Source: Planotetraspora sp. A-T 1434 (lineage in GTDB: Bacteria; Actinomycetota; Actinomycetes; Streptosporangiales; Streptosporangiaceae). Taken from it: a DNA stretch of 64,000 nt. Positions 5,021 to 57,832 of this stretch are shown piece by piece (positions within the stretch are counted from its first letter, which is position 1; each line of letters opens with the position of its first letter). The notes under the pieces were generated by a model. That model had not been told where the DNA came from and made no database searches. It saw nothing but the letters and a program-made list of their open reading frames with translations. The stretch spans positions 1-64,000 of the forward strand of contig NZ_JAOEGB010000007.1 in the NCBI RefSeq assembly GCF_025420585.1. Direction: 5' to 3'. The position numbers and the translations under genes are program-made.

Positions 5021-5232
5021 CAGTCCACCCGCAGGTCGGCGGCGGCGTCGAGGTCACAGTCCATGCCGATACCGGGTGCGTCCGGCGGCCAGACCCTGCC
5101 GTCCATGATCACTGATCCGGTCCGGGCGATGGCGCCGAGCTGCGGGATGTGCTCGACGAACCTGCCGTTTGGTACAGCACAGGCCAGGCTCATGTGCAGC
5201 TCCATCAGGAAACGGGGTGACCTCACAGTCAC
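5020..5232 (-). pseudogene. C-terminal remnant of a mandelate racemase/muconate-lactonizing (enolase superfamily) enzyme
   Basis: A 70-codon open frame encodes only the end of an enolase-superfamily protein. MSLACAVPNGRFVEHIPQL is followed by a DGRVWPPDAPGIGMD turn, matching the typical HLACAIPN...VEHIPQ...PGLGIDWD finish of acid-sugar dehydratases. The capping domain, the metal-binding acidic residues and the catalytic Lys/His region, more than 300 residues, are missing. It is directly preceded by a truncated ROK gene and directly followed, with one base of overlap, by the LplB-type permease. The layout looks like an internal deletion that joined the two genes. Confidence 0.7.
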
Positions 5233-5378
5233 ACCTGGTCGAGAGGGTTGAGAGGGGATCGAGTGGTTTGAGGTGATTTGAGAGTGCGTGGGATGGTACC
5301 TGTCGCGATATGACCGGCCAGTGGCCGGATCGACGAACGGATTGAGGCCGGCGGGGTCAGGGAACGACGAGCGGACTG

Positions 5379-5600
5379 GAGGCTGACCGGCCGCCCCGCG
5401 CGCCCACCGCCCACAGGAAGCGAGCGGCTGGACGCGGCCGGCTCATGCGGGTAAGCCCTGTCGATGAGCGCGCGAGCGGCCCTGGTGACGGCGACGGAGA
5501 ACAGCTGGAGCCGGCGCGCGAGGCTTACCCGAGTGAGTGGGCCCTGGGTCAGCATCGCTGTGATCACCGCCGTGAACACAGCCATTGCCGCCAGTGTCAC
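5379..5600 (-). pseudogene. N-terminal winged-helix remnant of a ROK-family repressor
   Basis: About 74 codons encode the DNA-binding end of a ROK regulator: a first helix (AVFTAVITAMLTQGPLTRVS), the HTH block LARRLQLFSVAVTRAARALI, then a GGGRAGRPVSL linker of the type that normally leads into the sugar-kinase fold. After the linker the similarity stops and the frame runs through about 50 low-complexity codons towards the enolase fragment. The usual small residue at the HTH turn is Phe here, compatible with decay. Intact ROK repressors are about 380-400 residues long and often control adjacent sugar ABC genes. Confidence 0.55.
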
Positions 5601-5869
5601 AGCGGGCTAAGCCGTGCCTTGCGGGAAACATAGGCGAAACGTAGGAGCAATATTTAACTTCGTCAAGTATTGATTTCGGCTCCAGACCGGTCCTACGCTC
5701 GGCGGCACCCCTGCGCCTGTCGCCCGCCGCAGAACCGAGGACCTGATGCCCGCGTGCTGTTCGACCCCGATCACCACCTGTGGCTGCCGCGCGGCCCGGC
5801 AACCGCGTACGCCGCCCGGCTCGCCGAGGACGGCGCGTCCGCGGTGCCATCAGCTCTAGGGTGAAGTCC

Positions 5870-6562
5870 ATGTCCGAACGACCGACGGCGCTCGTCACGG
5901 GCGCCTCACGCGGGATCGGGGCTGCCGTGGCCCAGGCCCTCGCCCCTACGTACGACCTGGTCCTTGGCGGCCGGGACCGCGCGGCACTGGACGCCCTGTG
6001 CGCCGAGCTGCCTCATGCCCGCCCGTGGGCGGTCGAGCTCACCGAGGTGACCGCAGCCGACGTCGAGGGGATCGACCGGCTCGACCTGCTCGTCCACAGC
6101 GCCGGGATCGCCCGGCTCGGCGCCCTGGCCGAGACCCCCGTGGAAGTCTGGCGGCGGACGTTGGAGGTGAACGTCACCGCTGTGGCCGAGCTGACACGGC
6201 TGCTGCTCCCCGCGCTCCGGGCGGCTCGGGGCCACGTCGTTCTGATCAACTCGGGTAGCGGGCAGCGGGCCAACCCCAACTGGGGGGCCTACGCGGCGAG
6301 CAAGTTCGCCCTGCGCGCCTACGCCGATGTCCTCCGTGAGGAAGAGCACCACGAAGGCATCCGGGTCACCTCGATCTACCCCGGACGGGTTGACACCGAC
6401 ATGCAGAGGGACGTCCGCGCCCAGGAGTCCGGCCCGTACGAGCCGGACAGGTACCTCGAGGCCGGCTCGGTCGCGCGTGCCGTGCTGGCCGCCGTGACCG
6501 CGACGCCCGACGCCCACATGACCGAGATCAGCGTGCGTCCCTCGGCCGGTCCTACGCGATGA
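5870..6562 (+). CDS. Short-chain dehydrogenase/reductase (SDR)
   Basis: A 230-residue classical SDR. The cofactor motif TGASRGIG lies at residues 10-17, the HSAG strand at 76-79, and the catalytic Tyr141 and Lys145 lie in YAASK, with Ser128/Ser130 in the preceding NSGSG stretch. The IYPGRVDTDM segment after the catalytic helix is typical. It should act in the cytoplasm on an unknown alcohol/ketone with NAD(P). ATG 5870 is chosen over an upstream in-frame start because similarity begins at ERPTALVTG. It is convergent with the cytochrome b gene. The 36 bp between them contain a GGGCAC/GTGCCC palindrome at 6565-6576. Confidence 0.92.
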   Translation: MSERPTALVTGASRGIGAAVAQALAPTYDLVLGGRDRAALDALCAELPHARPWAVELTEVTAADVEGIDRLDLLVHSAGIARLGALAETPVEVWRRTLEVNVTAVAELTRLLLPALRAARGHVVLINSGSGQRANPNWGAYAASKFALRAYADVLREEEHHEGIRVTSIYPGRVDTDMQRDVRAQESGPYEPDRYLEAGSVARAVLAAVTATPDAHMTEISVRPSAGPTR

Positions 6563-6602
6563 ACGGGCACGTGCCCCTTCTTGATCTTGTGCTGCCCTCA
6601 GA

Positions 6603-7280
6603 CTAGTGCTGGCTCGGACGAGATCCCGCGGTGTGGTCCTCCTCCAGCCACTTGGAGTGCCACCTCTTCGCCCAGGCCCGTTCCACGTAGCCTGTGCGCA
6701 TCCCCCGCCGTGCGTGCGGATCCCGGTAGGCCATTCGCATGTGCCCGATCAGGACGAGGCCGATGGCCAGGGCCGTCACATCGTGCACGAAGATGGCGCT
6801 CGTCCGGGAGATCACCGGCAGGAGTCCGGTGAACCACATCAGCAGACCCGTGACCATCATGATGGGCACAGCTCCGGCGATCCACCCGGCGTAGATCTTC
6901 TGCCCGGCATTGAACTTGCCGGCAGGCCGTTCGGCAGGCGAGGTCCAGCCTTTACGAACCGCTCGCAGCCACTCCTTGTCGTACCGCGCCAATCGGTTCA
7001 GTCTGCGTAGATCGGCGCGGAACGCGGACGAGGCCAGGCCGAGAAGGAACGGCGCCGGCAGCAGGATCCCCGACCACTCGTGGACGACGACCACCAGGTG
7101 GCGGCGTCCGACCAGTTCAGCGAGCGGCTGCAGATACAGACAGGCCGCCGCCCCGACGCACAGCAGCATGAGCCCGGCCGTGGCACGGTGGACCAGCCGC
7201 TCGGCTCGGGTGAACCGCAATATGCGCCGGGAGCGCTCAGGCGGAGCCGTGGTGCCCGTCAAGCCAACCGTCGACGTCAT
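6603..7280 (-). CDS. Cytochrome b561/formate dehydrogenase gamma-like membrane subunit
   Basis: A 225-residue membrane protein with four predicted helices. Histidines suited to haem b ligation sit in helix 1 (RLVHRATAGLMLL), helix 2 (VVVHEWSGILLP) and the fourth helix (FVHDVTALAIGLVLIGHMRM). Charged loops such as ARYDKEWLRAVRKGW match the gamma subunit of formate dehydrogenase and cytochrome b of molybdenum reductases. Its start lies 44 bp inside the end of the molybdoenzyme gene, so the two are translationally linked. Role: quinone-linked electron transfer to or from the molybdopterin domain at the outer membrane face. Confidence 0.85.
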   Translation of the reverse strand: MTSTVGLTGTTAPPERSRRILRFTRAERLVHRATAGLMLLCVGAAACLYLQPLAELVGRRHLVVVVHEWSGILLPAPFLLGLASSAFRADLRRLNRLARYDKEWLRAVRKGWTSPAERPAGKFNAGQKIYAGWIAGAVPIMMVTGLLMWFTGLLPVISRTSAIFVHDVTALAIGLVLIGHMRMAYRDPHARRGMRTGYVERAWAKRWHSKWLEEDHTAGSRPSQH

Positions 7281-7959
7281 AGCCGTACTCCTCCCAATAA
7301 CCAGGGATGACCTTGTCGGTCACCGAGATGCCGGAAAGCCATTTGGCCGACTTGTAGAAGTACATCGGCGCCGCGTACAGCCGCACGGGCCCACCATGAG
7401 CGTGAGTGAGCGGCTTGTCCTGCATCTTCAGGGCCACCAGCACATCGGAACGGCGTGCCTGCGCGAGCGTGAGGCTTTCGCTGTACACGCCGTCGAAGCA
7501 GGTGAAGCGGACCGCCTGAGCCCCAGGTCGCACGCCGGCCGCGTCGAGGAGGTGCGAGAGCAACACCCCTTCGAAGGGCGTTCCCGGGACCCCCCAGCCG
7601 TCGGTGCACCGCACATCACCGACGATCCGGGTCTGCGGCAACTCTCGCAGGGCATCGAGCGTGTACGTCCCGGGGCGGTCGACGAGGCCATCGATGGTCA
7701 GCTGGTAATTCGTATCGTCCTTCCGGGGCACCGAGCCCGCGACGCTGAAATAGCGGAAGCCACCCGGATTGGGCAGCACCCCCGTCAAACCGGTGGGGTC
7801 CTTCTGCGAGACGGCCTCGAGGACCTTCCCCCAGCCACCCTGCACGTACGGCGCGGCGACAAGGCCCGCGGCGCCGGCGCCGAGCATCGACAACATCACC
7901 CGTCGCGCGATGGGGGGGCCGCTTTCGGCTCCATTTCGTGAATCAGACATATCGCCCAT
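7237..7959 (-). CDS. Tat-exported molybdopterin-dependent oxidoreductase (sulfite oxidase/MsrP fold)
   Basis: A 240-residue protein. A short Tat-like signal (ARR at 18-20 followed by VMLSMLGAGAAGLVAAP) precedes a sulfite-oxidase-type molybdopterin domain. Cys118 in DVRCTDGW is the expected Mo ligand, followed by the conserved GVPGTPFEGVLL and HGGPVRLYAAPMYFYKSAKW blocks. The overlap with the cytochrome b gene downstream makes a two-subunit respiratory enzyme likely, analogous to the MsrPQ or YedYZ pair but with a different cytochrome partner. Substrate unknown; a sulfoxide, sulfite or N-oxide is possible. Two ATGs (7959, 7950) are equally plausible starts. Confidence 0.88.
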   Translation of the reverse strand: MGDMSDSRNGAESGPPIARRVMLSMLGAGAAGLVAAPYVQGGWGKVLEAVSQKDPTGLTGVLPNPGGFRYFSVAGSVPRKDDTNYQLTIDGLVDRPGTYTLDALRELPQTRIVGDVRCTDGWGVPGTPFEGVLLSHLLDAAGVRPGAQAVRFTCFDGVYSESLTLAQARRSDVLVALKMQDKPLTHAHGGPVRLYAAPMYFYKSAKWLSGISVTDKVIPGYWEEYGYDVDGWLDGHHGSA

Positions 7960-8256
7960 TCGAGCAGGTCGCCATCCTCATGGCCAGCGGCGACGGATGG
8001 CCGTAAGACTTCCGTCAGCTTTGCTCAGGTGCCTGGCATGGCACGCGAGCGCGGGGAGGGCTACGACGGCGCGGCGCTCGCAGTGGTGAACTCCGCATGC
8101 CACCCGCCGTTCCGCAGCTCAGCGCCGAGGGCCGGTGGACCGAGGCGACCCCGGCGCAGTCGCAGGACAGCGGAGCCCGGGACCCTCTCCGGGCGAGGCG
8201 CCGATCGGCTGAGCACTCCTTCCCATGCCCCTGGCGCGGCTCGCACCGTCACCACC
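7960..8256. other. Intergenic region between molybdoenzyme and ohr genes
   Basis: Together with the promoter region that follows, about 400 bp lie between the divergent starts at 7959 and 8360. Open frames exist on both strands, but none shows a ribosome site, a conserved motif or a hydrophobic signature. I see no gene here. Confidence 0.5.
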
Positions 8257-8286
8257 TTGACAGGTGACTCCCGATATGGCCAACAT
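8257..8286 (+). promoter_or_regulatory. Probable housekeeping promoter for ohr
   Basis: TTGACA at 8257-8262 and CAACAT at 8281-8286 are separated by 18 bp and lie about 70 bp upstream of the ohr start. A GTGACT element at 8264-8269 and an inexact inverse, AGTCATCAC, at 8287-8295 flank the -10 region and could bind a regulator. No OhrR gene is next door. Confidence 0.45.
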
Positions 8287-8359
8287 AGTCATCACTTAGA
8301 CCGGTGACGCACGCGAAGTGTGCCAGTTCGGATGAGCTCCCGCCAGGAAGGAAACAGCC

Positions 8360-8788
8360 ATGAGTGCCAGCTACACCGCGGTCGTCACTGTGACAGGAGA
8401 GGGCCGCAACGGAGGCCGGGCCACGGCCGACGACGGTCTGCTCGACACCACCCTCGCCATTCCCAAAGAGCTGGGCGGCGCCGGAGGAGCGACCAACCCC
8501 GAGCAGTTGTTCGCCGCCGGCTGGGCCGCGTGCTTCCTCGGCGCCGTCAGGAGGGCCGCGGCACAGCGCAAGGTGACGCTGAAAAGCACAGGCATCACGT
8601 CCGAGGTGACCCTGCACCACGGTGACGACGGCCAGTTCGGTCTGAGCGCCGTCCTCAACCTCACGCTGGGCGGCGTGGACCAGCAGACCGCCGAAGAGCT
8701 CGGCGCGGCCGCCCACCAGCTCTGCCCCTACTCCAGGGCCACCCGCGGCAACATCCCGGTCACCATCCGGGCGACCGCCGTCGCCTGA
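8360..8788 (+). CDS. ohr: Organic hydroperoxide resistance protein, Ohr/OsmC family
   Basis: A 142-residue protein of normal Ohr length. The peroxidatic Cys58 lies in FAAGWAACFLGAV and the resolving Cys122 in HQLCPYSRATRGNI, which is the Ohr rather than the OsmC version of the second motif. It reduces organic and lipid hydroperoxides in the cytoplasm, usually with lipoylated partners. GGAAGGAAA lies just upstream of ATG 8360. It is monocistronic apart from a possible microprotein starting 68 bp after its stop. An OhrR-type MarR repressor, the usual partner, is not adjacent. Confidence 0.95.
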   Translation: MSASYTAVVTVTGEGRNGGRATADDGLLDTTLAIPKELGGAGGATNPEQLFAAGWAACFLGAVRRAAAQRKVTLKSTGITSEVTLHHGDDGQFGLSAVLNLTLGGVDQQTAEELGAAAHQLCPYSRATRGNIPVTIRATAVA

Positions 8789-8855
8789 AGTCCCGCCATC
8801 GGCGGCGCCGCACCGGCGGCGTCAGACCAGGCGCTCCGCATAGCGAAGGAGCATC

Positions 8856-8945
8856 GTGTTGTACATGTCGAATGTCGTGAAGGCCCTGTCGGTGGCCGTA
8901 CTCCTGGGGGCCGTCGCCCTCGCCTGCTTCGCCCAGGTGTGGTGA
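8856..8945 (+). CDS. 29-residue hydrophobic membrane microprotein
   Basis: A GTG at 8856 follows GAAGGA (8845-8850) at good spacing and opens a 29-codon frame ending in TGA at 8943-8945. The product is a single transmembrane helix, KALSVAVLLGAVALACF, with a one-residue-per-side flank (N-terminal MLYMSNVV, C-terminal AQVW). An in-frame ATG at 8865 would give 26 residues. It lies 67 bp after ohr on the same strand. Function unknown; the length, ribosome site and membrane helix support reality, but conservation was not checked. Confidence 0.5.
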   Translation: MLYMSNVVKALSVAVLLGAVALACFAQVW

Positions 8946-9054
8946 GCCTCGAAGGGTGAACGGCGGGCGCGAGGGACACCGCGCCCGCCATTCACCGATC
9001 GGCCGCCTTTTCTTTATCTTGGTGAGACAGCGCATTTTTCGCCAAGGGGGCTGC

Positions 9055-9324
9055 GTGCGGATCCAGTGGCTCCTCCTGCCGCAGAGTCGGTCCGACTTCG
9101 TGGCCATGACGGCTGACGGCGGATACGCCGTGATCGCCCCCTCGATGAAGCGGCGAGCGTCTGGACGCTGGCGAATGAACCGGACCGGTTCGCCACGCTG
9201 AAAGGAATTTCCGAAGACCCCGTAGTGGCGGTCGCGGGGCGAAGTGATCCCACGCCTCCTGGTGGAGCTGCCCGTCATGGGACGGCTGGTGGACATCCCT
9301 GGGCCATGCCCTCAGGTCCGGTGA
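9055..9324 (+). pseudogene. Small unrecognised gene broken by two compensating frameshifts
   Basis: GTG 9055 follows AAGGGGG and starts MRIQWLLLPQSRSDF. That frame meets a stop at 9199-9201. From about 9144 a second frame reads DEAASVWTLANEPDRFATL and continues through GISEDPVVAV. From about 9244 the original frame resumes with VIPRLLVELPVMGRLVDI and ends in TGA at 9322. Joined, the three parts make one coherent product of about 89 residues. The family is not recognised. It is either a decayed gene or a double indel from sequencing. Confidence 0.4.
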
Positions 9325-9362
9325 GCCGCCGGAACTCACACTGCCCGCTCGTGCGGAAGAGA

Positions 9363-9923
9363 TCAGTGGCAGCGGATGTCCCAGCCTGGATCGGTGCTGT
9401 CGAAGATCTCGACTATGAAGGACGTGGGCCAGCCGTTGTCGAACCGGCTTGAGTATTTGGGGAAGTAAACCGTCACTTGCGCGCGCTCGCCATCAACGCC
9501 GGGGATGTCGGCCTGCTTGTAGTACTTCGTGATTTCCTCCTCGGGGAGCTGCGTCGTCAGCGAGAACCTGACGAGGTAGTCACAGTGATCCCCGTTCGAT
9601 CGCAGTTCGACCGAGCCTTCCGCGTCATAGTCCGCGAACTCCGTAGAGGGAGGCAGCGGGTAGGCGTAGAACCGGTCGGTGAAGTCGTCCAGCCGTCCGT
9701 CATCGGCCCACATCGGGATCTTGACGAGGAGGAACAAGCCGAGCACCGGTAAAGCCAGAGCGATAACGAGAGCGATGAGGCAGCCCTTTACCGCGTTCCT
9801 CGGAGAGGACGGAAGCCGGGGAAGGTCATCGGAGGGAACGGGTGGATCAGTCTGCATCGCACCAACTGGAAAATCAGGGGGCACCGGATGGACATCTTCC
9901 AGCTCATGAAGATCCGCAGGCAA
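9363..9923 (-). CDS. Unrecognised single-pass membrane protein with a C-terminal extracytoplasmic domain
   Basis: As drawn, 186 residues: a proline/aspartate-rich cytoplasmic N-terminus, one strong membrane helix (CLIALVIALALPVLGLFLLV, residues about 48-67), then a domain of about 115 residues outside the membrane with several aromatic and acidic patches and two cysteines (DHCDYLV and the final IRCH) that could form a disulfide. No family is recognised. The start is unsettled: the frame opens with TTG at 9923, an ATG at 9857 gives a shorter product, and neither has a good ribosome site. The frame stays open upstream of 9923 for about 20 codons of protein-like sequence (DYAALREAAGLIL). Confidence 0.6.
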   Translation of the reverse strand: MPADLHELEDVHPVPPDFPVGAMQTDPPVPSDDLPRLPSSPRNAVKGCLIALVIALALPVLGLFLLVKIPMWADDGRLDDFTDRFYAYPLPPSTEFADYDAEGSVELRSNGDHCDYLVRFSLTTQLPEEEITKYYKQADIPGVDGERAQVTVYFPKYSSRFDNGWPTSFIVEIFDSTDPGWDIRCH

Positions 9924-48811: not shown

Positions 48812-51800
48812 CTACTTCACGCCGTAGGCCCGGATGACGGTCTGCTCGATCCTGCCTCCCGCGGCGTCCTCGGCCGAGACCCGCAGCGACACCTGCTTGA
48901 GCGGCGGGTGAGCGACCAGGGTCGTGTAGCGGCCGCCGCCGGTCGGCACGGTGACCAGGCGCGTCCAGGTCTTCCCGTCGTCGTAGGACACCTCGGCCCC
49001 GAACGTCTTCACGGCCGCCGGGCCGGCGGAGGGGGTCCGTACGGCGAAGCTCAGCTTGGCGAGGCCACGGGAGACCTGACCGTTGAGGTCGGCCGGCACG
49101 TCGTAGTCGACCTGCGGCAGGTCGAGCGCCGCCTGTCCGGCCTTCGATCGGAAGGTCCACGCCGTCTCGGTGGCCGTGGCGTGCGTCCACTCCTCGGACG
49201 ACCGCCGCGTGGACAGCTCCAGGCGGTATTCCGCCTCCTCTGGCACCGCGGGGAAGTCGCCCCGGATCTCGCTCCGCTCCTCGACCAGTTCGCCGTTCCG
49301 GTAGAACCGGGCCGACGTCGTGTCCTGCTCGTCGCTGCCCCCGGCGTACCCGAAGTGCCCGGAGGAGTCGGCGAACTCGGGGACCACGACGCTCAGCGCG
49401 TCCCCCGACCGCGTGGGTGCGGGCACAGCGGCCGGGATCGCCGGCCGTACGACCGGTCCGAACCACGTCTCACGCACGACCTCACCGGGCTTGTAGCCCC
49501 GCGGCCGCTCGGTCAGGCCGCCCCGGAGGGAGAACATGTTGTCCCAGGTGAACATGTGCTGCACGATGTGCCGCCACTGCGTGTCGCCGGTGCTGACGTA
49601 CTCGGCCCGCTCCAGCGGAGTCCGGACGATCCGCTGCTGCTCCATCTGGAAGCCCAGGCCGTAGATCTGCCAGGGCCGCCAGCCGAACCGCTGCTCCTTG
49701 GCCCAGGCGAACCCGCCGGACTGCGCGTACGCGGTGTCGACGCGGGCCGTGTTGCGGTCGGTGACCTCGTGCACGATGTGCTCGGGAACCTCGCCGGGGG
49801 AGACCTGCATGATGTCGTAGTAGTAGGGGCTCACGACGTTCACGGACACTTCGAGTACGGCCCGGCCCGCGCCGTACAGCTTCCGCGCGTGGTCATGGGC
49901 GACCGCGAAGGTCGGCAGCGGATAGCGGTCGCCATCCGGGGTCCACGGCTGCCAGACGCTGCCGTCCTTCTCCCCCACGACGATGACCGCCGCGGCGCCG
50001 GCCGCCCCAGCCGCCGCGATCCGGTCCTCCCAGTAACCGCGGTCGGGAGGCGAGACGATCACCGCGCGGCCGCGCAGCTTGAGGCGGGAGAGCTCCTCGG
50101 GGGTGCCGGCGCCTCCGTCGACGAGCGGCCATCGCCGCACGCCGTCCATCTGGGGCGACCTGGCGAGCAGGCTCATCGTCACCGGCTCGCCGGAACCGGC
50201 CAGCCTGGCGGACACCTTCGGCGCGGCGAGCTGCCAGCGGGAGGCGAACTCGAAGCTCCCCTCCTTGACGGGCTGGGTCGGGGTCACGGCGAGCTGCTCC
50301 ACGACCGGGTAGTCCATGACGCCCTGCGAGATCTTGCGGTTGCCGATGGTCCGATGGGTGAAGTAGGTGAAGATGCCGTCCTGCACCACCGGCCGGGGCG
50401 TCTTGATGGTGATCGGGTTCGCCTTGCGGGCGTCCAGCACCACGTCCATGTCACCGGTCACCTGGAGCTCGGGCATGACGACCAGGCTGTCCACGGGGTG
50501 AGCGCTCTGGGTCGGGTCGAAGACGCCCTGCGTCATGTAGGTGCCTTCAGACACCCTGACGGTGATCCCTGTGTCGGCGTGCTCGCGGTCGATGTAGGCC
50601 CACACGTCGTCCAGCGACGAGGCTCCGTACATCGTGATGACGGGGATCGGGGTCGGCTTGCCGTTCCGGTCCACGGCGGTGAAGTGCACGTTGTGGAGAC
50701 GGCCGCGCTTGAACAGCGCCAGGGTCGTGTGCAGCGCGACCGTGCCGTCCGCGGAGACGGCGCTGACGTAGCCGCCGTACCGGCCGGTCGGCACCTTGGA
50801 CAGGGCGGCCCTGACCGGGACGGCGACCGACGCGCCGGCCTCCACGGTGACCTCGGAGGAGCCGAGGCTGATCGCCCCCTCGGGGGACGGGCCGCCGTCG
50901 ACGTTCGCCAGGCCGGCGGTGAGCGTGAGCTTCACCGAGGTCCCGGTGCCGTTGGTGTAGGTGATGTCGCCGCCCGGCTGGTCGTCGTCGCCCTCGTGGT
51001 ATCCCAGGTCGACCGCCCCGGTGGCCGTCACGCCCTGCCGTACGGCACGGGCCACGTCGAGCCGTCCGCCGCCCTGCTGGTAGACGGTCTGATCGGCCGC
51101 CGTCTTGGCGGTGGAGACCAGGATGTCCTTGATCTGCCGGGCCTTCCAGCCGGGGTGCTCCTGCTTGAGGATCGCCGCCGCGCCCGCCACGTGGGGCGTC
51201 GCCATGGACGTGCCGGACAGGGTGGTGTAGGCGTCGCCGACCGGCGTGCCGATGCTGGTCCCGGCCGCGCGGGCGGCGATGATGTCCACGCCCGGGGCGG
51301 TGATGTCCGGCTTGAGCCCCCCGTCGAGCCGGGGACCGCGGCTGGAGAAGCCGGCCAGGGCGTCCGCTCCGTCGACCGCGCCGACGGTCAGGGCGGAGGT
51401 GGCGGCGCCCGGAGTCCCGACGCTGTACTCCTTGCCCTCATTGCCGGCGGCGATCACGAAGAGGGCGCCGGTCTGGTCGGTGAGGTTGTCCACGGCGACG
51501 CTGAGCGGGTCGGTCCCGTCGGTCGGACCGCCGCCGAGGCTCATGTTGACCACGTCGGCGCCGGAGGCCGTGGCCCACTCCATCCCCTGGATGATCTCGG
51601 ACTCGGTGCCGGAGCCGCTGTCGTCCAGCACCTTGCCGACCATCAGCTGGGCACCGGGCGCCACGCCCTTGCGAAGGCCCTGGGAGGCCGTGCCCAGACC
51701 GGCGATGATCGAGGCGACATGGGTGCCGTGCCCGAATCCGTCCTGGACGGAGGGGTCCTCGGTGAAGTTGCGCGTCTGGGCGATCTTCCCGGCCAGGTCG

Positions 51801-52498
51801 GGATGGTTCTGGTCAATGCCCGTGTCCAGGACGGCGACCTTGACGCCCTTCCCGTCGAACCCGGCCTTCCACGCCTCCGGCGCGCCGACCTGGGGGACGC
51901 TGTGCTCCAGTGAGGCCCGGACCTTCCCGTCGAGCCAGATCTTCTTGATCCCCTGGGGGAGCGCCGGCTGGGCCTGGGCCGCGCGGGCCGAGGGCTCCAC
52001 GGTCCGCCACAGGTCGGACAGCTTGCCCTTGTCCGCGGCGACCGCCCGCGCGTTGACGCTCGGCAGGGCCGTGCCGTCCTGGACACCTGGCAGGGCGGCG
52101 GACTTCCTCGCAGCGCCGTCGTAGACGAACAGGAGCGGCAGGGTCGCGCTGCTCGCGTCGTCGTATCCCTGCTCGATCAGCTCGCCGACGTCGAACAGGC
52201 GCTTGTCGACCAGGTTCTTGGCCAGGTAGGGGACCATGTCGGCGGGCGTGATCCGCAGCTCGCCGTCGACCTCCTGGGAGTAGAACCTGATCCCCTCCCG
52301 GCCCTTGCCGGGCTCGACCGTGGCGGTCTGCTTCCCTCCGGCGAGTCCCTCGACCGTCACGACATCACCGGTGATGAGGGTGACCCGATGGAGCGCCCCG
52401 GGCGATGCCGGTGTGGCCTCGGCCGCCGAGGGCAGCGCCGGTAATCCGGCCATGGACAGGGCCACTGTGGCGGCCGTAAGACTCGCGAGCCAGCGCAT
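48812..52498 (-). CDS. Large secreted S8 (subtilisin-like) serine peptidase with PA domain
   Basis: A 1228-residue exported protease. Sec signal at residues 1-26 (AA at the cleavage region), an inhibitor-like prodomain (about 35-200), then the S8 domain with Asp225 (VLDTGID), His257 (GHGTH), oxyanion Asn353 (AAGNEG) and Ser431 (GTSMATPHVAG). From about residue 490 come beta-rich repeats, a PA-like insert near 830-930 (GRAVIVSPPDRGYW, AAGAAGAAAVIVVGEKDG), and a C-terminal beta-sandwich (VSYDDGKTWTRLVTV). No transmembrane end, so it is released or wall-associated. Downstream of the conserved TrmB/LuxR regulator. Confidence 0.94.
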   Translation of the reverse strand: MRWLASLTAATVALSMAGLPALPSAAEATPASPGALHRVTLITGDVVTVEGLAGGKQTATVEPGKGREGIRFYSQEVDGELRITPADMVPYLAKNLVDKRLFDVGELIEQGYDDASSATLPLLFVYDGAARKSAALPGVQDGTALPSVNARAVAADKGKLSDLWRTVEPSARAAQAQPALPQGIKKIWLDGKVRASLEHSVPQVGAPEAWKAGFDGKGVKVAVLDTGIDQNHPDLAGKIAQTRNFTEDPSVQDGFGHGTHVASIIAGLGTASQGLRKGVAPGAQLMVGKVLDDSGSGTESEIIQGMEWATASGADVVNMSLGGGPTDGTDPLSVAVDNLTDQTGALFVIAAGNEGKEYSVGTPGAATSALTVGAVDGADALAGFSSRGPRLDGGLKPDITAPGVDIIAARAAGTSIGTPVGDAYTTLSGTSMATPHVAGAAAILKQEHPGWKARQIKDILVSTAKTAADQTVYQQGGGRLDVARAVRQGVTATGAVDLGYHEGDDDQPGGDITYTNGTGTSVKLTLTAGLANVDGGPSPEGAISLGSSEVTVEAGASVAVPVRAALSKVPTGRYGGYVSAVSADGTVALHTTLALFKRGRLHNVHFTAVDRNGKPTPIPVITMYGASSLDDVWAYIDREHADTGITVRVSEGTYMTQGVFDPTQSAHPVDSLVVMPELQVTGDMDVVLDARKANPITIKTPRPVVQDGIFTYFTHRTIGNRKISQGVMDYPVVEQLAVTPTQPVKEGSFEFASRWQLAAPKVSARLAGSGEPVTMSLLARSPQMDGVRRWPLVDGGAGTPEELSRLKLRGRAVIVSPPDRGYWEDRIAAAGAAGAAAVIVVGEKDGSVWQPWTPDGDRYPLPTFAVAHDHARKLYGAGRAVLEVSVNVVSPYYYDIMQVSPGEVPEHIVHEVTDRNTARVDTAYAQSGGFAWAKEQRFGWRPWQIYGLGFQMEQQRIVRTPLERAEYVSTGDTQWRHIVQHMFTWDNMFSLRGGLTERPRGYKPGEVVRETWFGPVVRPAIPAAVPAPTRSGDALSVVVPEFADSSGHFGYAGGSDEQDTTSARFYRNGELVEERSEIRGDFPAVPEEAEYRLELSTRRSSEEWTHATATETAWTFRSKAGQAALDLPQVDYDVPADLNGQVSRGLAKLSFAVRTPSAGPAAVKTFGAEVSYDDGKTWTRLVTVPTGGGRYTTLVAHPPLKQVSLRVSAEDAAGGRIEQTVIRAYGVK

Positions 52499-52620: not shown

Positions 52621-52668
52621 TTGACAACCACGGCAACGCTCATCATACGATTTAATCGAGTGATTAAA
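52621..52668 (+). promoter_or_regulatory. Promoter with TetR-type operator for the doxX-DUF3419 operon
   Basis: TTGACA (52621-52626) and TACGAT (52646-52651) are separated by 19 bp. Immediately after, TTTAATC-GAGT-GATTAAA (52651-52668) is a perfect 18-bp inverted repeat that would cover the transcription start, 20 bp before the first gene. Its form and place are typical of TetR-family repressors. Confidence 0.65.
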
Positions 52669-52688
52669 CCGAGCGGTGAAGGGTTCCG

Positions 52689-53081
52689 ATGGCACGGTCC
52701 TGGCTTACCGCGGCCCCGGTCGCGTTGTTGTGGCTCTACGAAGGCCTGTGGTGCAAGGTCTTTCCCGGCAGGGAGGACCAGCGCGCGATCGTGGCGGGAG
52801 TCCCGTTCCTTCCCGCCGGCGCGGTGACCCCGCTCCTTGTCGCGATCGGGCTCGCCGAGGCCGGCATCGGGGTGTGGGCGCTGAGCGGGTGGCGCCCCCA
52901 CATGGCCGCGGTCGTCCAGACGGCCGTGGTCGCGACGGTCAACCTCGGCGGCCTGCTCTGGGGGTCGGACCACATTCCCGAACCGGCCCGGCTGGTCATC
53001 CAGGACATCGCGTTCATCGCGCTCGTCTGGATGGTCGCGGCCCAGCGGAGGCGACCCCTCCATCAGCGGGAGGCGCGGTGA
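52689..53081 (+). CDS. DoxX-like four-helix membrane protein
   Basis: A 130-residue inner-membrane protein with four helices: SWLTAAPVALLWLYEGLWCK, the Pro/Leu helix around GAVTPLLVAIGLAEAGIGVW, AAVVQTAVVATVNLGGLLWG and LVIQDIAFIALVWMVAA. The WLYEGLWCKVFP and WRPHMAAVVQ segments match the DoxX-like (DoxX_3) family, often linked to thiol or redox systems. ATG 52689 lies 20 bp after the palindrome; GAAGGG lies upstream. First gene of a coupled operon (GTGA overlap with the next). Confidence 0.85.
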   Translation: MARSWLTAAPVALLWLYEGLWCKVFPGREDQRAIVAGVPFLPAGAVTPLLVAIGLAEAGIGVWALSGWRPHMAAVVQTAVVATVNLGGLLWGSDHIPEPARLVIQDIAFIALVWMVAAQRRRPLHQREAR

Positions 53082-53971
53082 GCGGCAATCCGTGGGCCCA
53101 GGGGCGCATCCTGGCAGGCGGCGCGCGCCCGCGCGTGCTGTTCGGCCGCATGTATGAAGACCCCGGCGTCGAGCTCTCCGTCTTCCCCCCACCGGGCGCC
53201 CGGGTCCTGTGTGTCGCCTCGGCCGGGGACACCGCCGCCGCCCTCGCCGGCGCGGGCTACGAGGTCACGGCGGTCGACGTCAACCCGGTCCAGCTCGAAT
53301 ACGCGCGTGGCCGCCTTGAGCGGGGCGCGCCCGCCGTGGACGGCACGGCCGAGCGGATGCTGGCGACGGGCCGCGCGGCGGCGGCCGCTCTGCTCCCCGC
53401 GTGGCGCCGCCCGTCGCTGGAGCGGTTCCTCCGGCTCGACGATCCGTTTGAGCAGGCCCGGCAGTGGCGGACGAGCCTCGACGGCCCGGGCCTGCGGCTG
53501 CTGATGGGCGCGGCGCTCCGGCCCGCCGGTGCGATGGCCGCCGCGCTGCGGCCCGCCTTCCGCGGCGTCGTTCCGGCCAGGTTCGACCTGGCGCTCCGCC
53601 GCCGCATCGCGGGCGGCGTGAGCCGCCATCCCAACGCGCGCAATCCGTGGGCGTGGCGGCTGCTGCTCGGCCACGAGATCCTCCCGGCCGCGAAGCCCGC
53701 CGGGCCTCCGGTGAAGCTGGTGGAGGCCGACGTGGCCGGCCATCTCGAACGCGTGGCGCCCGGCACGTACGACGCGGTGACCCTGTCCAACGTCCTCGAC
53801 GGCCCGGGCCCGGCCTTCGCACGGCGCCTGCGGGCCGCCGTCCGGCATGCCGTACGTCCGGGCGGGGTGGCGGTGCTGCGCAGCTTCCGTGAGCCGGCCG
53901 CCTCCGGGCCGGGCCGGGCCGCCGACGAACGGTCGATGCTGTGGGGCGTCGTGCGGGTGATCGGGCTGTGA
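53078..53971 (+). CDS. DUF3419 / BtaA-like SAM-dependent transferase
   Basis: A 297-residue protein of the DUF3419 family: VLFGRMYEDPGVELSVFPPP, the cofactor turn VLCVASAGDTAAALA (GCG-type sequence replaced by ASAGD), TAVDVNPVQLEYARGRLE, and RFLRLDDPFEQARQWR. BtaA uses SAM as 3-amino-3-carboxypropyl donor to make betaine lipids from diacylglycerol; this copy is shorter than typical BtaA (about 370-400 residues). GTG 53078 overlaps the DoxX stop (GTGA). Second gene of the operon. A lipid-modifying function is inference. Confidence 0.75.
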   Translation: MSGNPWAQGRILAGGARPRVLFGRMYEDPGVELSVFPPPGARVLCVASAGDTAAALAGAGYEVTAVDVNPVQLEYARGRLERGAPAVDGTAERMLATGRAAAAALLPAWRRPSLERFLRLDDPFEQARQWRTSLDGPGLRLLMGAALRPAGAMAAALRPAFRGVVPARFDLALRRRIAGGVSRHPNARNPWAWRLLLGHEILPAAKPAGPPVKLVEADVAGHLERVAPGTYDAVTLSNVLDGPGPAFARRLRAAVRHAVRPGGVAVLRSFREPAASGPGRAADERSMLWGVVRVIGL

Positions 53972-54010
53972 GATACCTGGCTGTGAGAGACCTGGCTGTG
54001 AGAGAACTGC
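53966..54010 (+). repeat. Three 15-bp tandem repeats at the start of the DUF2071 gene
   Basis: CTGTGAGATACCTGG (53966-53980), CTGTGAGAGACCTGG (53981-53995) and CTGTGAGAGAACTGC (53996-54010) each contain an in-frame GTG. The gene therefore has three possible starts five codons apart (53968, 53983, 53998), the first overlapping the preceding stop. Confidence 0.75.
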
Positions 54011-54771
54011 TGCGGCGCCATCCACTGCCGATCCGGGCCCGGTTCGCGCACTCGCTCGTGCTGACCTACGCGCTGCCGCCCGAGGTGCTCGCCCCCTTGG
54101 TGCCGCCCGGGCTGGCGCTGGACACCTACACGGACCGGTCGGGGGTCGAGCACGGGTTCGTCGCCGTCGGACTGGTGGACACCCGCCGGCTGCGGCCCGC
54201 CTTCCTTCCCTTCGGCGGCGACCATCTGCTGACCGGCTACCGGATCTTCACCCGGTTCCGCACGCCCGGCGGCCGGACCATGCGCGGCCTGCGTATCCTG
54301 CGGAGCGACACGGGCAGCCGCCTGATGGTCATGGGCGGGAACCTGCTCACCCGCTATCACTACCGGCTCGCCCGGATGGTCTCCCGGGCCGGGGACGGCG
54401 CCCTGGAGTTCGAGGTGGTCAGCGCCGACGGCCGCGCGGACCTGCGGGTCCGGGCCGACCTGGCCGGAGCCCCGGCGCCGCTGCCCGAGGGGAGCCCGTT
54501 CGCCTGCGCGCGGGACGCCCGGCGCTTCGCCGGGCCGCTGCCGTACACCTTCGAGCACGAGCCGCGGACCGGCGCGATCGTGGTGGTCAAGGCTTTCCGC
54601 ACGCGCTGGGAGCCCGAGCCGGTCGCGGTCGAGGTCGGCGGGCTCACCTTCTTCGACCACGGGCCGTTCGCCGGGAGCGCGCCCGTCCTCGCCAACGCCT
54701 TCCATGTCGCGGATGTCGAGTACGGCTGGCATCGCGGCGTGCGCCGCACCCCTGACGGAGGAGAGCTGTGA
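53968..54771 (+). CDS. DUF2071 / YqjF-like protein
   Basis: A 267-residue protein of the YqjF/DUF2071 family (acetoacetate-decarboxylase-like fold): LVLTYALPPEVLAPLVPPGL, FVAVGLVDTRRLRPAFLPF, the YRIFTRFRT strand, GLRILRSDT and GNLLTRYHYRLA, with FFDHGPFAG near the end. No catalytic function is known; some members bind small molecules. GTG 53968 overlaps the DUF3419 stop. Third gene of the operon. Cytoplasmic by sequence. Confidence 0.78.
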   Translation: MRYLAVRDLAVRELLRRHPLPIRARFAHSLVLTYALPPEVLAPLVPPGLALDTYTDRSGVEHGFVAVGLVDTRRLRPAFLPFGGDHLLTGYRIFTRFRTPGGRTMRGLRILRSDTGSRLMVMGGNLLTRYHYRLARMVSRAGDGALEFEVVSADGRADLRVRADLAGAPAPLPEGSPFACARDARRFAGPLPYTFEHEPRTGAIVVVKAFRTRWEPEPVAVEVGGLTFFDHGPFAGSAPVLANAFHVADVEYGWHRGVRRTPDGGEL

Positions 54772-55499
54772 CCCATGGACCATCCGGCGCCCGGGAGGTC
54801 GTCGTCTACAACTGGCCGCTCTACGCGGCCGGCGCCGCCTGCGCGGTGGCGGGGGCCGCCGCAGCACGCCGGCTGCCGGGCGCCCCGCGAGCAGCGGCGC
54901 GCGGGGGCGCGCTGCTCGCGGCGGGCTGGCTGCTCAGCAGCGTCGCCGCGAGCTGGTGGGTCTACGACCGGTCCGGGCTGCACGCTTACACCTGGCTGCC
55001 CGATCTGCTGCCGGACGGGCCGGGGGACCACCTCGTGGTCTCCGGAGGACTCGACGAGGCCAGCCTGCCGCTCTCCGCCCATGGCAGGCAGACCGTGGCG
55101 GACCTGGGCCTCGCCACCACGGGCTCGCTCCGGCGTGCCCGCGACCGGGTTCCGCCGTCGCCGCGGGCAGTGGCCGCTCGCCCCGATCGCCTGCCGGTGG
55201 AGTCCGCGTCGCAGGACACGGTGTTCCTGGTCTTCGCCGCGCACGAGCTGCGCCGGCCGCGTGACCGGGAGAGCCTGTTCGCCGAATGCGCCAGGGCGCT
55301 CCGGCCGGGCGGCGCGCTGATCCTGGTCGAGCATCTGCGGGACGCCGCCAACGCGGCCGTCTACGGCCCCGGCTCCTTTCACTTCTTCCCGCGCGCGGAG
55401 TGGCTTCGGGTGGCGGGCCGCGCCGGACTGCGGACTTCCGCCGAGCGGCGGATCGGCACGTTCGTCACCGCGTTCGCCTTCCTTCGGGACCCGGCGTGA
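54768..55499 (+). CDS. Membrane-anchored methyltransferase-like protein
   Basis: A 243-residue protein. Two N-terminal membrane helices (about 16-35 and 46-62) precede a Rossmann-like methyltransferase domain: the strand VFLVFAAHELRRPRDRESLF, ECARALRPGGALILVEHLRD and FFPRAEWLRVAGRAGLRT are canonical late motifs, but motif I is degenerate (HLVVSGGLDEASLP lacks a GxGxG). This suggests weak or altered SAM binding. GTG 54768 follows GGAGGAG; it overlaps the DUF2071 stop. Placement after a BtaA-like gene makes a BtaB-like N-methylating role conceivable. Confidence 0.7.
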   Translation: MTHGPSGAREVVVYNWPLYAAGAACAVAGAAAARRLPGAPRAAARGGALLAAGWLLSSVAASWWVYDRSGLHAYTWLPDLLPDGPGDHLVVSGGLDEASLPLSAHGRQTVADLGLATTGSLRRARDRVPPSPRAVAARPDRLPVESASQDTVFLVFAAHELRRPRDRESLFAECARALRPGGALILVEHLRDAANAAVYGPGSFHFFPRAEWLRVAGRAGLRTSAERRIGTFVTAFAFLRDPA

Positions 55500-55918
55500 G
55501 CGGCCTGCTGGAGCTGGAGACCCAGCTGCGCCTGGTCGGCGTCGCGCTGCTCGGCATGGGCGCGTTCCACGCGGTGCTCCCCCGGCTGATCGGCTGGCCC
55601 GCCGACCTCGCCCCCACCAGCCTGCTGACCCGCCAGATCGCCTACGCCCACACCTTCTTCATCGGCCTGACCTGTGTGTGCCTGGGGTTGCCGCCGCTCC
55701 TGCTGACCGCCGACCTCCTGTCTGGCTCCCGGCTGGGGACCGCGCTGCTGGCGGGGCAGACGGCCTTCTGGGCGACCCGCCTGGTGTTCGAGTTCGCCGT
55801 GTTCTCTCCCCGCATCTGGCGAGGGGACCGCTTCCGGACTGCCGGTCACATCGCGTTGTCGATCCTCTGGACCTGGGTTACGGCGATCTTCGCCACGGCC
55901 CTGCTACAGGCGCTATGA
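55496..55918 (+). CDS. Four-helix membrane protein closing the operon
   Basis: A 140-residue protein with four hydrophobic helices (LRLVGVALLGMGAFHAVLPR, AHTFFIGLTCVCLGLPPLLL, LGTALLAGQTAFWATRLVF and ALSILWTWVTAIFATALL). GTG 55496 overlaps the methyltransferase stop (GTGA). No family is recognised. It may hold or transport the lipid made by the operon. Confidence 0.7.
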   Translation: MSGLLELETQLRLVGVALLGMGAFHAVLPRLIGWPADLAPTSLLTRQIAYAHTFFIGLTCVCLGLPPLLLTADLLSGSRLGTALLAGQTAFWATRLVFEFAVFSPRIWRGDRFRTAGHIALSILWTWVTAIFATALLQAL

Positions 55919-55983
55919 TGCCCGGAAATGAAGTGCCGGCGATGATCGTCTGATGCTGGGCCAAGTGGAAACGGGGGTTGCCG

Positions 55984-56721
55984 ATGAGCTTCGAAACGTC
56001 CTCATGGGCCGTGGGGCGCTTCGGCGACCGCGCCGACTTCGTGCGACAGCAGCTCGTCACGTCGCTGCTGGAGGCCATGGGCAACGCGCAGGACGCGCAG
56101 CGGTGGTCCCGCAGCGACAAGCGCTTCCCTTATGGGCAGACCATGATGACCAGGCGCTACGAGGCGCTGGTCGAGGGCTTCCGCAACGAGCCGGGCTTCC
56201 AGATGGTCAAGCCCTACGGCTCGCCGCATCACCTGGTGGTCCTCGACGGCAACCTGCTGCTGCCGTTCCGCTACGGCGAGGACGACACCACGCCCATCAC
56301 GGAGGCCCGGGTCACCGACGGCCGCATCTCCGCGCTGGCCAGAGAGCTGTTCACCCGGTACGGCCCGGCGGCGTCCTACCGGCAGCTGACCCTCGAGGAC
56401 GAGGCCGAGCTCGCGGAGGTCCGTCCCACTCTGGCCGGCCTCCCGGACGACACCCGTCTCGTCCCCGTCGCCTACGCGGGCAACGCCCAGGCGGGGCTGC
56501 TCCGGCTCTACTGGGGCGAGGCGGAGCTGATCGACGAGTTCGGCAGGCTCCGATGGCATCACTACGAGCCGATCCCGCTCCTGACGGCTCACACCGCGAC
56601 CCTTCTACCGGCTCAGCCCGGCACCGCCACGCGCTTCGACCACGGCGCCGTTCCGGACCTCGGCCTGAGCCCGAGGGAGTCCCAGCGGACCGCGGTCGCC
56701 GGCGGCGATGAGCGCCCCTAG
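55984..56721 (+). CDS. Unrecognised 245-residue protein paired with an XRE-ImmA/IrrE regulator
   Basis: A soluble protein starting MSFETSSWAVGRFGDRAD, with no signal or membrane helix. Segments such as QRWSRSDKRFPYGQTMMTRR, YEALVEGFRNEPGFQMVKPY, ELFTRYGPAASYRQLTLED and GNAQAGLLRLYWGEAELID suggest a mixed alpha/beta domain. ATG 55984 follows GGGG at 7 bp. It overlaps the next gene by 14 bp, so both are made together. In gene pairs of this layout the partner is often the substrate or effector of an ImmA-type protease; that role is only an inference. Confidence 0.8.
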   Translation: MSFETSSWAVGRFGDRADFVRQQLVTSLLEAMGNAQDAQRWSRSDKRFPYGQTMMTRRYEALVEGFRNEPGFQMVKPYGSPHHLVVLDGNLLLPFRYGEDDTTPITEARVTDGRISALARELFTRYGPAASYRQLTLEDEAELAEVRPTLAGLPDDTRLVPVAYAGNAQAGLLRLYWGEAELIDEFGRLRWHHYEPIPLLTAHTATLLPAQPGTATRFDHGAVPDLGLSPRESQRTAVAGGDERP

Positions 56722-57832
56722 CCCGCAGGCCGTGGCGGACGCCTTCGACCCCGCGCGGCTCACCCAGGCCCGGCGTCTGGCCGGGATGACGAAGAAGGAC
56801 CTCGCCGAGCGGATCGGTGTCACGCCCGCCGCCGTGGGACAGTACGAGACCGGCATGACCCGCCCGAGGGGCGACCTGGTCCCCCGCCTCGCCGGCGTTC
56901 TCGGCGTCCCGTTGGCGTTCTTCCTGATGGGCCGCCCGCACGGCAAGCTCGACGGGTCCATGGCCCATTTCCGGAGCCTGCGCTCGACCCGGGCCCACCA
57001 GCGGGCCAAGGCGGTCGCGTTCGTCGAGCAGGTGTGGGAGCTCGCGCACGCCCTCGAACGACGCGTACGGCTGCCGCACGTGGACCTGCCCGGATTCTCG
57101 GGCGGCGAGGTCCACCCCCTGGCCCGTGACCCCGCCGAGGCCGCCCGCGCCCTGCGCCGGCTCTGGGGGCTGGGCGCCGGGCCGCTGTCCCACATCGTCC
57201 GGCACCTGGAGGCCCACGGGATCATCGTGGTCTTCCCGCCCCCGGACGAGGACGCCGCCACGGTCGACGCGTTCTCCACGTCCCAGCTGCCCCGGCCGAT
57301 CGTCGTCCTCACCGCCAACCGGTTCGACGACATCCACCGCTACCGGTTCACCGCGGCGCACGAGCTGGGCCATCTGGTCCTGCACGGGGACACCGCCTCC
57401 GGAGACACCCAGCAGGAGCGGGAGGCCGACGTCTTCGCCGCGGAGTTCCTCACCCCGCGCGACAGCATCCTCCCGGAGCTGCCCAAACGGCTCGACCTGC
57501 GGAGGCTCGTCGAGCTCAAGCACACCTGGGGCGTGTCGGTCGACTCCCTGCTGTACCGGTGCCGGGAGGTGGGCCTGATCTCCGACTCCGCCGCGGGCCG
57601 GGCCTACCAGCGGCTCAAGACGCTGCGCGACCAGCCCGGATTCGCCGCCGAGCCGATAAGCGGCTATCCCGGCGAGCAGCCGATGCTGCTCCGCCAGGCG
57701 TTCGACCTCGCCGTCGCCGAGACCGGCCTGACCATGCCGCGGCTCGCCGCCCAGCTGGCCTGGCCGATTCCCCGGGTCCGCGAGCTGCTCGGCATGCCCG
57801 ACCAGCGGCCCGCTCTGCGCATCGTCCCGTGA
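56708..57832 (+). CDS. XRE-family regulator with ImmA/IrrE metallopeptidase domain
   Basis: A 374-residue protein. The XRE HTH is at residues 15-75 (LTQARRLAGMTKKDLAERIG, TPAAVGQYETGMTRPRGDLV). The ImmA/IrrE peptidase domain (about 160-290) has the zinc motif His218-Glu219-x-x-His222 (AAHELGHLVLH) and the third ligand Glu239 in EREADVFAAEFL. A C-terminal HTH-like region follows (TMPRLAAQLAWPIPRVRELL). Such fusions sense a signal, cleave a repressor or themselves, and control mobile elements, stress responses or toxin-antitoxin pairs. Its start overlaps the unknown partner gene. Confidence 0.92.
   Translation: MSAPSPQAVADAFDPARLTQARRLAGMTKKDLAERIGVTPAAVGQYETGMTRPRGDLVPRLAGVLGVPLAFFLMGRPHGKLDGSMAHFRSLRSTRAHQRAKAVAFVEQVWELAHALERRVRLPHVDLPGFSGGEVHPLARDPAEAARALRRLWGLGAGPLSHIVRHLEAHGIIVVFPPPDEDAATVDAFSTSQLPRPIVVLTANRFDDIHRYRFTAAHELGHLVLHGDTASGDTQQEREADVFAAEFLTPRDSILPELPKRLDLRRLVELKHTWGVSVDSLLYRCREVGLISDSAAGRAYQRLKTLRDQPGFAAEPISGYPGEQPMLLRQAFDLAVAETGLTMPRLAAQLAWPIPRVRELLGMPDQRPALRIVP

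Follow-up and report, generated by a model that had tools for sequence, protein, structure and literature searches.

What controls a five-gene operon that has a TetR-type operator at its promoter and no TetR gene beside it, and what might such an operon do? The question is raised by positions 52,621 to 55,918 of a 64,000-nucleotide stretch of the Planotetraspora sp. A-T 1434 genome (contig NZ_JAOEGB010000007.1), hereafter the window, where genes for a DoxX-like protein, a member of the BtaA family (DUF3419), a DUF2071 protein, a methyltransferase and a small membrane protein follow one another. An original prediction, made from the letters alone, had proposed a membrane-lipid modification system, possibly of betaine type, under a distant regulator. 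Here, we link the operator to a conserved TetR gene on another contig of the same genome, and suggest that the operon probably replaced, as the target of this TetR, a pair of genes (divA and divB, together divAB) that accompanies the regulator in related genomes.

An operator shared with a distant TetR gene

The operator has two perfectly complementary arms of 7 bases and a centre, GAGT, that is not palindromic, so that 14 of its 18 positions are palindromic; the "perfect 18-bp palindrome" described earlier thus holds for the arms and not for the centre. It ends 20 bases before the ATG of gene 1 (52689). Given the base composition of the window, approximately 0.00013 exact sites are expected in the 7.78-Mb genome, and two exact sites are present. 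These were also the only ones found at up to two mismatches, one before the operon and the other at C83:81307, while a control with the operator pattern reversed gave one site in the genome at the same stringency.

The second site lies just upstream of a TetR gene on contig C83, whose product scores 42.1 bits against TetR_N (cut-off 24). The longest open reading frame (ORF) of this gene would begin upstream of the operator, but the TetR genes of relatives start after it. A local TetR was considered and rejected, as none was found among the nine proteins scanned around the operon (the products of its five genes, three downstream proteins and the upstream S8 peptidase). The distant regulator that had been postulated was thus located behind an identical operator, and the search for further operator copies near TetR genes, which had been proposed as a check, yielded this one. 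Of the papers matching a literature search for the operator sequence, those listed were, judging by their titles, unrelated.

The TetR is widespread in the family, with matches in 127 of 295 genomes at E 1e-30. The best 30 of these 127, the window genome among them, were taken as TetR loci, and the 29 others were compared. Identity was 82–91% in the 22 best full-length matches, which came from 12 other genera. The operator was found beside TetR in perfect form in 25 of the 29 loci and with one mismatch in three more; at the last locus (L080), none was detected at up to four mismatches. We also searched 36 relatives (28 of the 29 TetR-locus genomes and eight operon carriers of genus g245) at up to one mismatch, and each had a single site, adjoining TetR by its coordinates (36/36); the control pattern gave one match in one genome. 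Among these 37 genomes, only that of the window has a second site. According to these patterns, the C83 TetR is predicted to bind and repress at the operon, and it probably represses its own gene as well. Further, weaker operator matches often occur at 13-base spacing on either side of the operator in the TetR loci (L056–L084), as if more than one TetR dimer binds.

Probable replacement of divAB by the operon

In all 29 loci of relatives, a membrane gene, divA, is divergent to TetR; the operator lies between the two in 28, and in 27 of 29 (within 1.5-kb flanks) divA is followed by a divB match. Since the divB score against PEMT lies under the Pfam cut-off (23.9 bits against 25), we call it only PEMT-like; its DCC1-like score is also under the cut-off (19.4 against 27.8), and of its 12 matches on plasmids, 4 carry an ICMT-family annotation. 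At the TetR locus of the window genome, both TetR (90.7% identity to its G412 counterpart) and the Tex gene on its flank (86.2%) are kept. Neither divA nor divB had a match in the window genome by whole-genome and locus searches, the former carrying no control of its own, and divA had none in the window. Local tblastn with the same queries in five other genomes recovered divA at 43–63% and divB at 51–61% identity.

The promoter of the operon has three features in common with the divA side of the relatives' intergenic region, namely the CTCATCATACG flank, the right flank and the distance to the start codon. The operator lies 20 bp from the divA start in L056 and 21–22 bp from it in L060, L063, L065 and L068, and a TTGACA box like that at 52621-52626 in the window stands at the same place in 7 of 28 divA-side promoters. 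A flank profile was built from the relatives' 28 sites with the operator core removed. The window flanks scored 23.1 bits against it in the orientation of the operon, a value equalled by none of 127,526 background positions, and −15.4 bits when reversed. By itself, the right flank gives a weaker match (5.8 bits, a score that 27 of the 127,526 positions reach). The relatives' own sites scored 27.7–60.5 bits, though the profile was built from them. At the window genome's own TetR site, no likeness to the divA-side flanks is left (right flank −19.9 bits). The left flank of the operon (52641-52668) keeps a reversed TATGATGAG element that resembles the TetR −10 box of relatives; it points toward the divergent S8 peptidase gene (48812-52498, − strand), which might share the switch.

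Because divAB has apparently been lost and the operon sits behind a promoter and operator of divA type, the five-gene operon has probably taken over from divAB as the target of TetR. On the simplest account, a promoter of the TetR-divA type came to lie before the five-gene operon, and the original divAB was lost. A replacement in function is also suggested by the shared control and the shared character of the two operons, each of which combines a membrane protein with an S-adenosylmethionine (SAM) enzyme.

Several observations weigh against this account. The −10 box of the operon promoter is poor: none good was seen by eye at the usual spacing from TTGACA, and a consensus scan listed no promoter there. 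The eight operon loci of genus g245 have no operator at up to four mismatches, the sole site in these genomes being that beside TetR, and the operon of a Streptomyces plasmid (L027) has none either. G568, the only one of the eight g245 carriers checked, has the five-gene operon together with divA and divB (L119). The operon in g245 is therefore neither tied to TetR nor simply exclusive of divAB. Other carriers have other regulators, such as an ArsR gene (L028 and L029) or a TTGAACGTGTTCAA site (L014). The swap is shown by one genome, a draft of 136 contigs and 98% completeness, in which divAB could sit in a gap, although the native locus is read through; the empty genome-wide divA/divB search also had no positive control within it. 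Finally, family analogy is the sole basis for a lipid as the substrate, which is plausible.

Operon architecture

The five ORFs are all on the + strand, and each junction is a 4-base GTGA overlap (Table 1). The ORF coordinates confirmed the coupled arrangement 20 bp after the operator that had been described. The family calls also stood, with DoxX_3 (PF13781) at 46.8 bits for gene 1 (Pfam cut-off 25), DUF2071 (PF09844) at 46.2 bits for gene 3 (cut-off 27) and Methyltransf_11 at 35.7 bits for gene 4 (cut-off 21.2); gene 2, assigned to DUF3419, is treated below. The Pfam scan gave no family for gene 5. According to PMC4520260, DUF2071 is related to the acetoacetate decarboxylase (ADC)-like fold and does not conserve the Schiff-base lysine of that decarboxylase. 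By titles and first abstract lines, no paper describing the operon was found among those listed for DUF3419/DUF2071 and BtaA.

Directly 3′ of the operon (55978-57832, + strand), a protein with no Pfam family overlaps by 14 bases an HTH_3 and Peptidase_M78 protein, which scores 116 bits against the spr1629 repressor/antitoxin model (cut-off 335). The two resemble a toxin-antitoxin-type pair.

Table 1 Features of the operon, its control region and the distant TetR gene.
Feature	Position	Strand	Description
TetR operator TTTAATC-GAGT-GATTAAA (TTTAATCGAGTGATTAAA)	52651..52668	.	Identical site before a conserved TetR gene on contig C83
Promoter/operator segment	52621..52698	+	Akin to the divA side of relatives' TetR-divA intergenic region; CTCATCATACG left flank, CCGAGCGGTGAAGG right flank
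Gene 1	52689..53081	+	DoxX_3-like membrane protein, 130 aa; three hydrophobic stretches
Gene 2	53078..53971	+	Shortened DUF3419 (BtaA-family) SAM enzyme, 297 aa; GTG start
Gene 3	53968..54771	+	DUF2071 (ADC-like clan), 267 aa; GTG start
Gene 4	54768..55499	+	Methyltransferase of class I, 243 aa, preceded by a two-helix hairpin (probably membrane) at the N terminus; GTG start
Gene 5	55496..55918	+	Small integral membrane protein, 140 aa; GTG start
TetR gene	G000:C83:80629-81258	-	Operator at C83:81307 just upstream

A shortened member of DUF3419

BtaA transfers a 3-amino-3-carboxypropyl group from SAM to diacylglycerol, and BtaB methylates the product. Judged by its sequence, gene 2 is a real, shortened member of DUF3419. 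It scored 31.6 bits against PF11899 (cut-off 28.2), a match covering only positions 12–65 of the 385 of the profile. In a six-frame genome search with PF11899 that covered 21 relatives, it was the sole match, at 23.4 bits, under the cut-off. The 13 homologues that were aligned all match DUF3419 (E 0.01 or better); the match in L025 (G480) was left out of the alignments because it resembles a general methyltransferase. As references, we used five longer, uncharacterised DUF3419 proteins from other actinomycetes. Comparison by hhalign gave a full-length alignment of 286 columns (probability 99.7%, E 3.1e-26), in which gene 2 retains 21 of the 30 residues invariant in these five proteins, themselves uncharacterised. 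Retained residues include E27, D28, S48, G50, D67, Q72, N189, D232, D241, R268 and R285. Among the motifs, gene 2 keeps the ED of WED/YED, the serine and glycine of motif I, the D and Q of VDxNPxQ and the arginine in the C-terminal DR block. The DUF3419 assignment was thus borne out by Pfam, by hhalign and by the invariant residues, most of which are kept; on the point of SAM-binding residues, the alignment does not refute the original prediction.

Gene 2 also departs from the references. It has no counterpart to a central block of 43–51 of their residues, with shorter gaps elsewhere, and where 6/6 references have the DW tryptophan, 12 of the 13 gene 2 homologues have glycine and one has alanine. 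Its motif I is recognisable (ASAGD against SGG in the references), so the "degenerate SAM motifs" attributed to both enzymes do not apply here, whereas the loop of gene 4 is indeed unusual, though conserved.

The gene 2 model has a class I methyltransferase-like core at a mean predicted local distance difference test (pLDDT) score of 65.8. The best VIA match reached Z 14.0 over 143 residues (root-mean-square deviation (rmsd) 2.7), and Foldseek returned no match at E 0.001 or better. With a model of such middling confidence, these comparisons support a methyltransferase fold only. A BtaA structure was absent among the matches listed, an absence that carries no weight against BtaA. Profile searches of solved structures with genes 2 and 4 returned methyltransferases and spermidine synthases, weakly in the case of gene 2 (best E 0.0007).

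A methyltransferase with a putative membrane anchor

The model of gene 4 (pLDDT 85.8) places a two-helix hairpin (residues 7–35 and 38–68) before a class I methyltransferase domain, and its best fold match reached Z 18.5 over 150 residues (rmsd 2.8). A single stretch (47–65) passes the hydropathy threshold, so it is the model that points to a hairpin, which is probably in the membrane. Class I methyltransferases usually carry a glycine-rich GxGxG loop; in gene 4 a conserved SxGLDExS segment replaces it. The best profiles are those of general methyltransferases. In the class search, the gene 4 profile matched 23 of 296 genomes at E 1e-10, strongly only in the window genome (G000), G445 and G459; the remaining matches had partial profile coverage and resemble general methyltransferases.

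Sporadic occurrence of the operon

Across the phylum, gene 2 was found in 1 of 296 genomes, that of the window itself, and within the family in 11 of 297, namely the window genome, eight of genus g245, L024 and L025. In all eight g245 genomes carrying gene 2, genes 1–5 stand in identical order, and the complete set is also present on a Streptomyces plasmid (L027); the conservation of gene order, on which the original prediction had been staked, thus speaks in its favour. Kitasatospora xanthocidica has genes 1–4 with no gene 5 match, and a Chloroflexi bin has genes 1–3 before its contig ends. Gene 5 is the last gene in 8/8 g245 loci and on the Streptomyces plasmids L027, L028 and L029. The 4-base overlap of genes 4 and 5 recurs in 8/8 g245 loci and that of genes 3 and 4 in 7/8, the exception being L023 (G459; 4875-7066), where gene 4 is split into two parts with 1,427 bases between them. 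Likewise, the match of gene 1 in G445 falls in two frames (L022, 6852-7209). These split genes could reflect decay or sequencing errors in some carriers.

Parts of the operon also occur separately. In Streptomyces lavendulae and S. yangpuensis, for which the analysis covered plasmids (L028 and L029), genes 3-4-5 follow a gene annotated as ArsR (domain checked for L028), and this operon has neither a DoxX nor a BtaA-like gene. In L024 (G472, 4660-9860), gene 2 alone matched of the operon queries tried, and its homologue lies among genes for a flavin monooxygenase (FMO), a class III CoA-transferase and an MFS transporter, a setting for a DUF3419-type enzyme that resembles a small-molecule cluster. 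A tblastn search of plasmids with gene 2 at E 10 added one further record, a DUF3419 gene of Mycobacterium riyadhense, which adjoins genes for an iron-containing redox enzyme, a GNAT protein and an RND transporter. DUF3419 proteins of intermediate type, one of them that of the M. riyadhense plasmid, were seen in other actinomycetes (L121, 2470-3450; L126, 1354-2469).

The upstream regions differ among carriers. The TTGAACGTGTTCAA site of Kitasatospora (L014, 6460-6473) stands before gene 1 and is perhaps the operator of another repressor. By eye, the last 50 bases before gene 1 in g245 (L016–L023) share a distinct element, whose GGTGGTT-like end directly precedes the start codon; it may be a promoter of another type, giving a leaderless start.

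Proposed mechanism and alternatives

We consider it fairly probable that the operon encodes a membrane-associated enzyme set which modifies a lipid-like substrate with SAM-derived groups, is repressed by the C83 TetR and has replaced divAB. The C83 TetR would repress the operon in trans, and probably itself, until binding of its ligand releases the operon. Gene 2 would then transfer a 3-amino-3-carboxypropyl or related group from SAM, gene 4, anchored in the membrane, would methylate, gene 3 would bind or process a hydrophobic intermediate, and genes 1 and 5 would form the membrane part. The tie to the BtaA family, the putative membrane anchor of gene 4 and the PEMT-like protein of divAB speak for a lipid head group. 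A bolder version, which we put forward tentatively and regard as unlikely, holds that the divAB and five-gene operons, though unrelated to each other, are functionally interchangeable outputs of one TetR sensor, and that the latter makes a new, non-DGTS (diacylglyceryltrimethylhomoserine) head group or modified lipid by aminocarboxypropyl transfer and methylation.

Could the operator be a chance or relict site, with the operon outside the control of the C83 TetR? Its absence from the five-gene operons of relatives would fit, but exact sites are expected at only 0.00013 per genome, the flanks resemble those of the divA side, correctly oriented, at a score that 0/127,526 background positions reach, and gene 1 starts 20 bp past the operator, as divA does in L056, close to the 21–22 bp of four other loci; such an origin is very improbable indeed. 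Classical DGTS synthesis, with gene 2 as BtaA, gene 4 as BtaB and the others accessory, is quite improbable. The full-length alignment of gene 2 with the DUF3419 references and its 11 named residues from E27 to R285 agree with it. It is nevertheless doubtful because genes 3–5 also occur without a BtaA-like gene, on the L028 and L029 plasmids; gene 2 moreover lacks the central 43–51 residues, the DW tryptophan is absent in 13/13 homologues, and gene 4 combines the modelled hairpin with best matches to general methyltransferase profiles. Given these plasmids and the L024 setting, genes 2 and 4 may well have roles other than those of BtaA and BtaB, and the betaine-lipid chemistry originally proposed stays putative.

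The main rival, somewhat unlikely in our view, is that the operon is a resistance or tailoring module modifying a diffusible hydrophobic metabolite (a natural product, a toxic compound or a quinone) that is sensed by TetR. Regulators that vary between carriers, sporadic and plasmid occurrence (1/296 genomes of the phylum, 11/297 of the family), the FMO, CoA-transferase and MFS neighbours of the gene 2 homologue in L024, and the fold matches of gene 4, which include many natural-product methyltransferases, all point this way. On the other hand, the operon includes no efflux pump or biosynthetic core, the TetR-divA arrangement is constant in 29/29 loci, unlike that of a resistance cassette, and a fold in common reveals no substrate.

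Comparison with known systems

Gene 2 resembles BtaA/DUF3419 (PF11899) proteins in its whole-length profile match, most invariant residues and the C-terminal DR block, and differs in the changes from SGG to SAG and from DW to DG, in the missing central residues and in having operon partners other than btaB. Gene 4 shares the class I fold of BtaB and of class I lipid N-methyltransferases such as phosphatidylethanolamine N-methyltransferase (PEMT; 8ys9), but has an N-terminal hairpin and the conserved SxGLDE loop; as a putative BtaB counterpart it is near gene 2 here, yet without it on two plasmids. The ArsR-linked operon of Streptomyces plasmids (L028, L029) has genes 3-4-5 in the same order at 60–75% identity, but with ArsR in front and no DoxX or BtaA-like gene.

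The closest parallel in control is the TetR-divAB locus of actinomycetes, which shares the operator, promoter layout, orientation and a similar start distance, and differs in its target genes, divA and divB having no match in the window genome. The main novelty is this regulatory result, the link of an orphan operator to a named TetR on another contig, which turns the operator into part of a named and testable regulator-target pair. It would amount to a natural replacement experiment, in which a TetR and its switch were kept and the enzymes under their control exchanged. If this replacement is true, each of two uncharacterised membrane operons narrows down the function of the other, and the conserved TetR offers a handle on both the signal and the lipid or metabolite.

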